A stretch of DNA of 10,631 nucleotides, from contig JAFQVC010000177.1 of NCBI GenBank assembly GCA_017408205.1, positions 1 through 10,631 of the forward strand. The letters are read 5' to 3'. Origin of the DNA: Clostridia bacterium. Its GTDB lineage: Bacteria; Bacillota; Clostridia; Monoglobales; Firm-18. This document shows, piece by piece, positions 3,348-6,296 of this stretch (position 1 is its first letter; each line of letters starts with the position of its first letter). Below the pieces are notes generated by a model that saw only the letters and a program-made list of their open reading frames with translations, made no database searches and was not told where the DNA came from. The position numbers and the translations under genes were made by a program.

Positions 3348-3623
3348 ATGGCATTAGAAGCATTAGGTATGATTGAAACAAGAGGTTTGGTTGCAGCAAT
3401 CGAGGCAGCAGATGCAATGGTTAAAGCAGCAGAAGTAGTACTAATCGGAACAGAAAAAATCGGTTCAGGTTTAGTAAGCGTTATGGTTAGAGGCGACGTT
3501 GGTGCTGTTAAAGCAGCAACAGAAGTTGGCGCTAACGCTGCTCAGAAATTAGGCGAATTGGTTGCTTCACACGTAATCCCAAGACCACATTCAGACGTAG
3601 AAAAAATTCTGCCAAAGTTATAA
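3348..3623 (+). CDS. Hexameric BMC-H shell protein, PduA/PduJ/EutM-like (copy 1)
   Basis: This 91-residue single BMC-domain protein ([20 protein letters not shown]..., ending [17 protein letters not shown]) is nearly all canonical domain. The pore loop reads KIGSGL, as in PduA/EutM-type hexamers whose central pore passes small polar metabolites. Such proteins are the main facet tiles of the shell. It has a very strong Shine-Dalgarno, AAGGAGGA at 3332-3339, eight bases before the ATG, fitting high expression, and it ends in tandem TAA stops. The next gene is a near-duplicate: bases 3440-3518 match 3875-3953 with one mismatch. Confidence is high for the family; the choice between PduA, PduJ and EutM names is arbitrary. 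Confidence 0.95.
3440..3518 (+). repeat. Near-identical direct repeat in BMC-H genes, copy 1
   Basis: These 79 bases match 3875-3953 at 78 positions; the only difference is C3494 versus T3929. They encode the segment from [10 protein letters not shown] to AVKAA. Silent third positions are preserved too, indicating recent tandem duplication or gene conversion rather than protein-level selection alone. Confidence 0.9.
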
Positions 3624-3638
3624 TAACGGGTGATTGTT

Positions 3639-4061
3639 ATGGCAGAGAAGAAAGTAAGTAAAGTGTCAGCAGGTCAGGTAAAACCTGCAAAAGCGGAAGC
3701 GAAAGCAGAAGCAAAACCCGAAGTTAAAGAAGAAACAAAAAAAGAAATAAAAAAAGAAATAATTAAGGAGGAAGTAAAAATGACACAAAAAGAAGCATTA
3801 GGTATGGTTGAAACAAGAGGTTTAGTAGCAGCAATTGAGGCAGCAGATGCTATGCTTAAAGCCGCTAACGTTGAACTAATCGGAACAGAAAAAATCGGTT
3901 CAGGTTTAGTAAGCGTTATGGTTAGAGGTGACGTTGGTGCTGTTAAAGCAGCAGTTGAGGCAGGTAACGCTTCAGCTCAGCGTCTTGGCGAAATCATCGC
4001 TACACACGTTATTCCAAGACCTCACAGCGATGTTGAGAAAATTTTACCTGCTATTAAATAA
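3639..4061 (+). CDS. Hexameric BMC-H shell protein with Lys/Glu/Ala-rich N-terminal extension (copy 2)
   Basis: The ATG-3639 frame encodes 140 residues: a 47-residue charged extension (14 Lys, 10 Glu, rich in Ala, no Cys or aromatic residues) and then a complete 93-residue BMC-H domain almost identical to copy 1, with the same KIGSGL pore loop and [15 protein letters not shown] end. ATG-3639 is preferred to an in-frame GTG at 3630, because that GTG lies within the GGGTGAT ribosome binding site (3628-3634). A second, stronger start exists inside the frame: AAGGAGGA at 3765-3772 and ATG at 3780, giving a normal-sized 93-residue shell protein. Both products may be made, as with PduB and PduB' in Salmonella. 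If only ATG-3780 is used, the upstream part is leader. The BMC-H identity is certain; use of the long start is probable. Confidence 0.85.
3765..3782 (+). promoter_or_regulatory. Internal ribosome binding site and ATG for a short BMC-H isoform
   Basis: AAGGAGGA at 3765-3772 is followed after seven bases by an in-frame ATG at 3780-3782, which would start a 93-residue canonical shell protein ([14 protein letters not shown]...). It is the same sequence element as the one before copy 1: 13 bases, 3327-3339 and 3760-3772, are identical. Within the long frame these bases encode Lys-Glu-Glu. It is a better match to the anti-Shine-Dalgarno than the site serving ATG-3639. Confidence 0.75.
3875..3953 (+). 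repeat. Near-identical direct repeat in BMC-H genes, copy 2
   Basis: This is the partner of 3440-3518, offset by 435 bases, with 78 of 79 bases identical. It lies in the same codon register of the second shell gene, so the unit marks a tandem gene duplication. Confidence 0.9.
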
Positions 4062-4076
4062 TAGTGCATTATTAAA

Positions 4077-4110
4077 AGGACTGTGTCACAGTTAACTGTG
4101 ACACAGCCCT
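4077..4110 (+). other. Long palindrome / RNA hairpin between BMC-H and BMC-P genes
   Basis: Bases 4081-4106 are a perfect 26-base palindrome (half-site CTGTGTCACAGTT), extended by three more pairs around one A-C mismatch to 4077-4110. As RNA it can form an 11-pair stem with a UUAA loop, plus the outer pairs. No run of T follows (the next bases are AGATAATAAT), so it is not a canonical intrinsic terminator for the + strand. It sits 15 bases after the second hexamer gene and 26 before the vertex-protein gene. An mRNA stability or processing element, a partial terminator, or a protein-binding palindrome are all possible. Confidence 0.75.
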
Positions 4111-4136
4111 AGATAATAATGAAAGGAGAGATATAA

Positions 4137-4407: not shown

Positions 4408-5748
4408 GTGGCAGATATAATTTCTTTAGCAGAACTACTTAAAAAACACGGTGTTGTAGGTGCCGGTGGCGCTGGCTTTCCGTCATATGCTAAATTGAAT
4501 AAAAAGGCAGATACTGTTATATTAAACTGTGCCGAGTGTGAGCCACTGTTTAAAGTACACAGACAGGTTCTTGCAATGTATGCCAACGAGATTTTGTATG
4601 CTTTAGACCAAGTTGCAAAAGCAGTTGAGGCAGAGCAGGTAATAATTGCAGTTAAAGATTCATATAAAAACACAATTACAGCCCTGTACGAGCACATTGA
4701 CAAGTACAAAAATTTCTCTATTAAAAAATTGCCTGAGGTTTATCCGTCAGGTGACGAAGTGGTAACAATCTACGAGACCACGGGAAGAGTTGTTCCTCAG
4801 GGACAGATTCCTATTTCAGTAGGCGTTATAGTTTATAATGTTGAAACAATGCTGAATGCGTACTACGTTTTAACAAAGAATAAACCTGTTACTTTAAAAT
4901 ATGTTACAGTTGCAGGTGAAGTAGAAAATCCCCAGACCTTTTTAGTGCCTGTAGGTACTGAAATTTCAGAACTGATTGAAGCGGCAGGGGGAGTAACCAG
5001 AAAAGACGTGGCTTATTTAAACGGCGGAATAATGACGGGTAACATTACCAAAACCAATATGCCTGTAACAAAAACTACAAATGCAGTATTGGTACTTCCT
5101 AAAGACCACGTAGCAATACAAAGAAGGCAAACGAAAACAAGTATTAATTTAAACAGAACGAAAAGTGCATGTTGTCAGTGCAGAATGTGCACAGACCTTT
5201 GCCCAAGGTATTTGTTAGGGCAGGACTTACAGCCCCACAGCATTATGTACGGTGCATCAAACGGAAATACAAAGAACGTTGATATATTTGTTAATTCGGC
5301 GTTTTGTTCTCAGTGCGGGTTGTGTGAACTGTATTCGTGCCATCAGGGATTATCCCCTAAAATGATGATTAACGTGTTTAAAACTGAGTTGGGCAAAAAG
5401 GGTATAAAACCCGAGCCAATAAAGGAAACACCGAAAGTTCATCCTGCAAGAGAATACAGATTAGTTCCCATGGAACGTTTAATTACAAGATTAGGACTTA
5501 ATGTTTACGATGTTAAAGCACCGATAAACGAGAAAGTCTTTAAGCCAAAAAAAGTGAAAATAATGCTTAACCAGCATATCGGCGCACCTGCTGCGGCAGT
5601 CGTTAAAACAGGCGACAAAGTAGTTGCAGGTCAGGTAATCGGAGAAGTGGCACAGGACAAATTAGGAGTTAATATCCACAGTTCCATAGACGGTGTTGTT
5701 GGTGAAGTTAAAAACGGATATATAATTATAGAAAGGACTGACAGTTAA
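4408..5748 (+). CDS. pduS: PduS-like flavin/iron-sulfur oxidoreductase (RnfC-related)
   Basis: This 446-residue protein resembles PduS and the RnfC/NuoF family. The Gly-rich GVVGAGGAGFPSYAKL (15-30) and NCAECEP (40-46) belong to the FMN/NADH-binding N-terminal domain. A soluble-ligand-binding (SLBB) segment spans about 165-215. Two [4Fe-4S] motifs follow: C255-x2-C258-x2-C261-x3-C265-P and C300-x2-C303-x2-C306-x4-C311. The C-terminal 385-443 looks like a barrel-sandwich hybrid (GDKVVAGQVIGEV, SSIDGVVGEV). In Pdu systems PduS is a cobalamin reductase and binds PduT; with no B12 enzyme seen here, a general role moving electrons from NADH to or through the shell is more likely (inference). The start is GTG at 4408 with AAGGAAGG upstream. 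The gene overlaps pduT by one base (TAATG). No membrane segment is seen. Confidence 0.92.
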   Translation: MADIISLAELLKKHGVVGAGGAGFPSYAKLNKKADTVILNCAECEPLFKVHRQVLAMYANEILYALDQVAKAVEAEQVIIAVKDSYKNTITALYEHIDKYKNFSIKKLPEVYPSGDEVVTIYETTGRVVPQGQIPISVGVIVYNVETMLNAYYVLTKNKPVTLKYVTVAGEVENPQTFLVPVGTEISELIEAAGGVTRKDVAYLNGGIMTGNITKTNMPVTKTTNAVLVLPKDHVAIQRRQTKTSINLNRTKSACCQCRMCTDLCPRYLLGQDLQPHSIMYGASNGNTKNVDIFVNSAFCSQCGLCELYSCHQGLSPKMMINVFKTELGKKGIKPEPIKETPKVHPAREYRLVPMERLITRLGLNVYDVKAPINEKVFKPKKVKIMLNQHIGAPAAAVVKTGDKVVAGQVIGEVAQDKLGVNIHSSIDGVVGEVKNGYIIIERTDS

Positions 5749-6296
5749 TGGGCAAATCAATAGGTATGATTGAATATACAACTGTTTCTGCAGGTATTAA
5801 GGCAGTAGATACTATGGTGAAGACATCAGCCGTTGAGGTTATTGAAGCCCAGGTTGTTTGTCCCGGTAAATACATAGCATTAATCAGCGGTGAGTTAAGT
5901 GCAGTAAAAGCGGCAGTTGAAGCATCAGTTTCTTTATGCGGAAACAAACTGATTGACAAGTTTGTTCTTGGAAATCCCCATGAAGCCATCTTCCCTGCAA
6001 TTTACGGTACGACTCAGGTAGAAAACCCAAGAGCACTTGGGGTATGCGAAACATATTCTGCTGCCTCAATTATTGTTGCGGCAGATGTAGCGGCAAAAAC
6101 CGCTATGGTAGATTTGATTGAACTAAGAATTGCAAGAGGTATGTGCGGTAAATCGTATATGCTTATAACAGGCGAAGTTGCTGCAGTTGAAGCGGCAATT
6201 GAGAAAGTTAAAAAAGACCTTGCAGAAACGGGAATGTTCTTAGACAGCGAAGTAATAGCAAGTCCTGATATGAAAATCTGGAAAACTATATTATAA
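5748..6296 (+). CDS. pduT: PduT-like tandem BMC-domain trimeric shell protein with iron-sulfur pore cysteine
   Basis: Two BMC domains lie in tandem in this 182-residue protein: residues 1 to about 85 (SIGMIEYTTVSAGIKAVDTMVK) and about 94-182 (RALGVCETYSAASIIVAADVAAK). C38 in VVCPGKY is at the same position as the cysteine of characterised PduT proteins, which coordinates a [4Fe-4S] cluster at the threefold pore. A second pore-loop cysteine, C133 (GMCGKSY), is also present. The ATG overlaps the pduS stop, with AAAGGA at 5732-5737. Close coupling to pduS fits the known PduS-PduT interaction, suggesting electron transfer across the shell. Length agrees with the family (about 184). Confidence 0.93.
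   Translation: MGKSIGMIEYTTVSAGIKAVDTMVKTSAVEVIEAQVVCPGKYIALISGELSAVKAAVEASVSLCGNKLIDKFVLGNPHEAIFPAIYGTTQVENPRALGVCETYSAASIIVAADVAAKTAMVDLIELRIARGMCGKSYMLITGEVAAVEAAIEKVKKDLAETGMFLDSEVIASPDMKIWKTIL

Follow-up and report, generated by a model that had tools for sequence, protein, structure and literature searches.

To our knowledge, dual-start shell proteins are known only for PduB, to which CcmM can be added among carboxysome parts. CcmM, of the beta-carboxysome, has an internal translation start that yields a short isoform from which the N-terminal part is missing, although it is a Rubisco linker and not a shell hexamer. PduB and PduB′ are made from a single gene with two in-frame starts, the long form carrying a 37-residue N-terminal extension (PMC3836489, PMC10100840), and the N-terminus of PduB is reported, in the title of Lehman 2017, to bind the enzyme core. 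For pduK, which encodes a C-terminally extended BMC-H protein, two possible starts ∼20 bp apart have been offered as alternatives (PMC3836489). In Clostridium (Lachnoclostridium) phytofermentans, PduA was aligned to residues 73-161 only of Cphy_1182, a BMC-H protein of the fucose/rhamnose locus (Petit 2013, PMC3557285); the table in that paper thus implies an N-terminal extension of about 72 residues, but its accessible text discusses neither the extension nor a second start. BMC-H extensions of up to 200 residues, most often C-terminal, are described in Sutter 2021, where dual starts go unmentioned in the accessible sections. Among the open-access literature matches listed, we found no report of a dual-start BMC-H gene with two products.

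Here we describe such a candidate, the second of two adjacent BMC-H genes in the window, by which we mean the whole 10,631-nt stretch of DNA that was analysed. Its features, and those of its neighbour, are:

3348..3623, + strand: first BMC-H gene, 91 aa, a short paralogue without the extension (PF00936, 2.7e-29)
3628..3634, + strand: GGGTGAT, putative Shine-Dalgarno (SD) sequence of the long form, read from the sequence, 4 nt before ATG-3639
3639-3641, + strand: upstream start ATG, 15 nt past the first BMC-H gene's stop codon (TAA 3621-3623)
3639..4061, + strand: second BMC-H gene, predicted long isoform of 140 aa; the frame is open, homologues share the layout, and the stop ends at 4061
3639..3779, + strand: N-terminal extension, 47 codons, K/E/A-rich and predicted to be disordered
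3765..3772, + strand: internal SD sequence AAGGAGGA, read from the sequence, which doubles as K-E-E codons and is supported by codon bias and conservation
3780..4061, + strand: predicted short isoform, a canonical 93-aa BMC-H protein, with a start region (3745-3800) predicted to be unpaired

A preliminary description of this DNA held that the gene is open from ATG-3639 for 140 residues, that AAGGAGGA stands seven bases ahead of an internal ATG-3780 (93 residues), and that the upstream start has a GGGTGAT of its own. Coordinates, translation and sequence bear this out: the spacing between AAGGAGGA and the ATG at 3780-3782 is 7 nt (3773-3779), and GGGTGAT begins four bases after the stop of the first BMC-H gene. 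Both ATG starts had been listed correctly, but an in-frame GTG at 3630, which overlaps GGGTGAT and also opens an ORF (143 aa), had been overlooked; we take ATG-3639, and not GTG-3630, as the start of the long form.

At the level of sequence the likeness to PduB/PduB′ lies in the two in-frame starts with separate ribosome sites. The proteins themselves differ. PduB is a tandem-domain BMC-T trimer of the propanediol microcompartment, whereas the long isoform matches PF00936 once (residues 53-128, 2.5e-30) and, having one BMC domain rather than two, is not a PduB but a single-domain subunit of the PduA/EutM type. The short-isoform core resembles PduA and EutM in both sequence and fold, these being the closest Foldseek matches to the modelled core (TMt about 0.9), and the translation contains LKAAN and PRPH, motifs named in the accessible part of PMC8217296. 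The N-terminus of PduB is reported to bind the core, whereas here a low-complexity charged tail would be expected in the cytosol. PduK shares with this gene the combination of a BMC-H domain and two candidate starts, but its candidates are not presented as two products and it has no long N-terminal tail. The first BMC-H copy, 81% identical to the second, has its own SD sequence, AAGGAGG, 9 nt before its ATG. No NCBIfam match was obtained for the extension (3639..3779).

By domain and family matches, most of a microcompartment operon lies in the window. An EutS-like shell protein (partial, at the 5′ end) is followed by EutP/PduV, a class II aldolase, an HbpS-like protein, a Zn-alcohol dehydrogenase, the two BMC-H genes, BMC-P, a PduS-like protein, a two-domain BMC protein, a PduP-like aldehyde dehydrogenase, a second two-domain BMC protein, PduL, a DeoR-family regulator and a rhamnulokinase whose gene is truncated by the window end. 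Two of these assignments stand below family cut-offs: the ORF at 4408-5748 has PduS-like domains with RnfC as its top NCBIfam match (229 bits, cut-off 246), and PduT is the best match of the two-domain BMC protein at 5748-6296 (108 bits, cut-off 250). The class II aldolase (pfam00596) and the Zn-type lactaldehyde reductase (pfam00107 and pfam08240) belong to GRM5 loci as these are defined, along with PduS and PduT homologues and a glycyl radical 1,2-propanediol dehydratase, in the accessible text of PMC6325248, and the locus fits a GRM5-type fucose/rhamnose microcompartment operon in that sense. There is no glycyl radical enzyme within the window; the 203-contig assembly to which the window belongs has one on a separate contig, C108, and a sibling, G001, has one (TIGR01774, above cut-off) together with an activase upstream, on the same contig and strand. 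The class II aldolase (820-1635) has a Cys-rich segment (SCHGCGGTCKGDC) and then a C-terminal tail that by eye resembles an encapsulation peptide.

We propose that translation of the second BMC-H gene begins at two in-frame starts on a single mRNA. The upstream site (GGGTGAT, ATG-3639), being weaker and partly structured, would give a minor 140-residue form, and the internal site (AAGGAGGA, ATG-3780), stronger and unstructured, a major 93-residue form. The long form may co-assemble into hexamers with short subunits, and perhaps also with the neighbouring paralogue, its disordered lysine/glutamate-rich tail projecting from the concave, cytosol-facing side as a sparse decoration of the exterior; since internal initiation would leave most subunits tail-free, the facets could still pack. 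Such a tail might prevent shells from sticking, stacking or aggregating, limit assembly, or bind a cytoplasmic partner. We give this reading as a whole, two-start translation with a minor long and a major short form and an outward tail decorating the shell exterior, a probability of roughly 0.85. The two starts, their SD sequences and their conservation in relatives can be read directly from the DNA, and from them we infer the existence of both proteins: both starts are very probably used, and the 93-aa form is probably more abundant than the 140-aa form.

Homologues were drawn from genome_contigs, as the best 80 of 414 confirmed relatives' loci, to which the window and G001 were added. Genes in which an in-frame ATG lies 20 codons or more upstream of an internal ATG were retained, giving 62 distinct genes (the window, G001 and 60 of the 80 loci) after removal of L089 and L092, which are fragments of G002, of the first-copy ORFs of L009 and L058 (by hand), of masked-stretch rows (the L023 first copy) and of duplicates with identical extensions. 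Because loci were ranked by similarity to the long protein this set favours extensions, and because homologues are related the counts within it are non-independent. The preliminary description had pointed to homologous loci as a check, and frame and internal SD proved to be conserved at 60 of the 80 scored.

The alternative that survives best also has both forms made, but places the tail in the lumen, where a PduB-like long form would tie the shell to the enzyme core. PduB/PduB′, a known dual-start shell protein, is its precedent (PMC3836489, PMC10100840). Set against it is published BMC-H geometry, which is also the source of our own placement of the tail, rather than this protein: according to the accessible text of two papers, N- and C-terminal extensions of BMC-H lie on the concave side (PMC5534457) and the concave side faces the cytosol (PMC10902431), so that the tail should lie outside the shell. 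The tails themselves have no amphipathic-helix character. Variable in length, from 20 to 114 residues (median 47), the 62 extensions have K (20%), A (15%), E (14%) and T (11%) as their main residues; Cys and Phe are absent, and Leu occurs only 19 times in total. An AlphaFold2 model built from 40 aligned sequences, of the monomer only, has a mean pLDDT of 68, residues 1-42 scoring below 50 and the remainder adopting a BMC fold, from which the extension is predicted to be disordered; the modelled extension contains no helix, which at such pLDDT is weak evidence. An encapsulation-peptide-like tail, that is, an amphipathic helix of 15-20 residues, was considered and found to be unsupported by a composition rich in K, A, E and T, poor in Leu and devoid of Phe and Cys. 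In our judgement decoration of the outside is therefore to be preferred to a link with the core, which we regard as unlikely. In 51 of the 62 extensions the N-terminal half is the more basic, the charge being near neutral towards the shell.

A less probable alternative is that the 93-residue form is the sole product, the upstream frame being a non-functional leader that lacks stops by luck. It would accommodate the stronger internal SD (47 of 62 genes, where the upstream start was picked as the best-scoring ATG per gene and upstream SD strength is thereby flattered), the partly folded upstream start of the window, and the at least 13 of 80 loci with no ATG-started extension on the second copy. 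The extension nevertheless looks coding. Frame 0 is open in 62/62 by selection, but shuffles predict that only 8.1/62 frames of these lengths would be open by chance, and the other two frames are open across the extension in 3/62 each. Synonymous change is in excess within the extension: pN/pS is 0.38 there and 0.06 in the core for 19 close pairs, which share members and were taken from 87 extension genes at ≥90% core and ≥70% extension identity, the latter choice biasing the ratio downward. G001 has a 12-nt in-frame deletion inside the extension, and is identical to the window from before the SD through the first short-form codons. The N-terminus recurs among the 62, with A2 in 48, D/E3 in 42 and K5 in 45, and all three in 27. 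At the upstream ATG a number of homologues have GGTGAT- or GAGGTGAT-type sites and others have different SD-like matches, accompanied by a dip in predicted mRNA structure. On open frame, pN/pS and in-frame indel together we reject a spurious upstream ORF.

That dip is the smaller of two. The mean MFE over 45 nt is -3.8 at the upstream ATG and reaches its minimum in magnitude, -2.2, at the internal ATG, most other positions sampled more than 15 nt away falling in the range -5.6 to -11, the vicinity of the gene end (-3.9) excepted; these values carry no composition control, and the internal start sits in an A-rich stretch. In the window, 3610-3660 folds at -7.1 kcal/mol and 3745-3800 is predicted to be unstructured (MFE 0), a difference between the two sites that hints at production of the short form in excess.

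Could the internal SD instead be a by-product of a required K-E-E motif beside the shell domain, with the 140-residue form as the only product? In its favour are the abundance of K and E throughout the extensions, the fact that AAGGAGGAA can be spelled by KEE codons, and the 50 of 62 single-locus synonymous tests that are non-significant. In each of the 62 extension-bearing homologues, however, the internal ATG is preceded by an SD match of at least 6 nt; within the preceding 20 nt GGAG occurs in 62/62 and GGAGG in 57/62, as against 5 occurrences of GGAGG per 8,401 positions in the remaining extension sequence. Synonymous recoding with the codon usage of each locus gave a mean match of 5.03 nt where 7.26 is observed (combined p 3e-14), the individual tests reaching p<0.05 in 12/62 and each being weak by itself. 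The internal SD is in excess of chance. The wobble bases are near-fixed: at -5/-4, K is encoded by AAG in 54/55 cases and by AAG in 177/598 (30%) elsewhere in the same extensions (Fisher 2e-25), and E by GAG in 60/60 and 80/396 (20%), respectively (Fisher 3e-36). The bias persists when each 95%-identity cluster contributes a single gene (37 clusters; Fisher 2e-15 and 1e-20), and it is smaller when set against the genome, because coding sequence of the loci at large uses both codons more than the extensions do (AAG share 0.49, GAG share 0.40). Nucleotides are retained even where residues change, GGAGG being read through VRE, TEV, PEV, REV or EEE; L055, with KKE, keeps GGAG but not GGAGG. Given this codon bias and the survival of the SD through residue changes, we reject a chance AAGGAGGA within K/E-rich coding sequence.

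In strength the internal SD resembles those of further BMC-H starts. Its mean energy over the 62 genes (-11.6 kcal/mol) matches the value for 102 such starts elsewhere in these loci (-10.85 kcal/mol); the remaining in-frame ATGs of the core average only -4.3 (191 sites), and codons of the extensions -3.3 (2,325 codons). With the minimum of mRNA structure at the internal ATG, these observations leave the long form as sole product very improbable. All 40 aligned sequences share Met48, an internal Met having been an inclusion criterion. Proteolytic removal of the tail, easy enough to imagine for a disordered K-rich segment, is the least credible origin of the short form, as it leaves a conserved nucleotide-level SD before the internal ATG unexplained.

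To survey the layout more widely we used the 93-aa core as query, which avoids selecting for extensions. Of 51 genomes in the window's order, 19 gave a match, and every one of these has a long second copy (stop-to-stop frame of 126-159 aa) beside a short neighbouring copy. In one of them, the sibling genome G002, the extended BMC-H gene is interrupted by an assembly break, the parts lying on contigs C40 and C42. Class-wide, 84 of 391 genomes match the core, and for at least 40 of these a listed match has an open frame of at least 115; sequence was examined in 24 of those 40, all of which have the extension and the internal SD (24/24), and the remaining 16 may include other locus types. Order and class fetches, best-scoring first, comprised 54 loci from 43 genomes and partly overlap in organisms with the 62-gene set. 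Extension with internal SD is present in 37 of the 43 genomes, while two are cut at contig ends and four are without an extension at the locus fetched. By locus, a script flagged 49 of the 54 as extended, of which L151, with an 18-residue hydrophobic stretch, was judged spurious to leave 48; contig ends truncate L150 and L160, and L148, L149, L151 and L158 are without an extension. Among named relatives the layout is present in, for example, Anaerocolumna, Mobilisporobacter, Lachnotalea, Robinsoniella, Konateibacter and Anaerobium.

The original proposal of a dual start predicting long and short isoforms thus gains strong comparative support, but the arrangement is not universal, as 20 of the 80 loci fall outside the set. 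Thirteen of these have a second copy with no ATG-started extension and four have a single BMC-H start. In L049 an open frame of 28 codons lacks an ATG, and the extension of L036 looks intact with a TTG start that the ATG rule missed. In L068 (about 4914-5930) an extended BMC-H gene has no internal Met and stands beside two extra plain short copies, possibly a case in which the two products have been split onto separate genes. In L042, L054, L055 and L056 the extended BMC-H gene is followed by a third, unextended copy. Upstream of non-extended second copies we saw no clear case of a frameshifted extension remnant.

A tree of 164 BMC-H domains (86 columns, with only 3 starred inner branches) places the extended copies mostly among second copies, with short ones scattered, and requires 23 label changes as opposed to ∼51 when labels are shuffled, at least 5 of them forced. 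This counts against a clean single origin of the extension; repeated loss appears likely. The at least 13 of 80 loci lacking an ATG-started extension imply that those lineages can do without the long form, and the comparison suggests that the short product is what must be kept, the tail appearing to be an add-on that some lineages drop.

If two-start translation with an outward tail is correct, a dual start conserved over many genera in a canonical shell tile would be a simple genetic setting of the fraction of decorated subunits. The function of the outer face of a microcompartment would become directly testable, engineers would gain a natural stoichiometry control for the display of tags on shells, and annotating the long or short product alone would miss half of the gene's output. 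More tentatively, clostridial fucose/rhamnose shells might use this translation-level mixing from one hexamer gene to carry a sparse, tunable brush of polyampholyte tails on the cytosolic face, controlling dispersion, size or positioning. We know of such a tail-brush system for no other BMC-H.

One further element lies downstream, in the gap between the second BMC-H gene and BMC-P:

4081..4106, + strand: strong hairpin (MFE -28 kcal/mol, z -6.95 over 4062-4136)

The hairpin is formed by a 26-nt palindrome, CTGTGTCACAGTTAACTGTGACACAG, within 4062-4136 and has no T-run; the dual start does not require it. It may set the hexamer:pentamer stoichiometry via mRNA stability, and it is retained in G001 despite substitutions (MFE -25.7).
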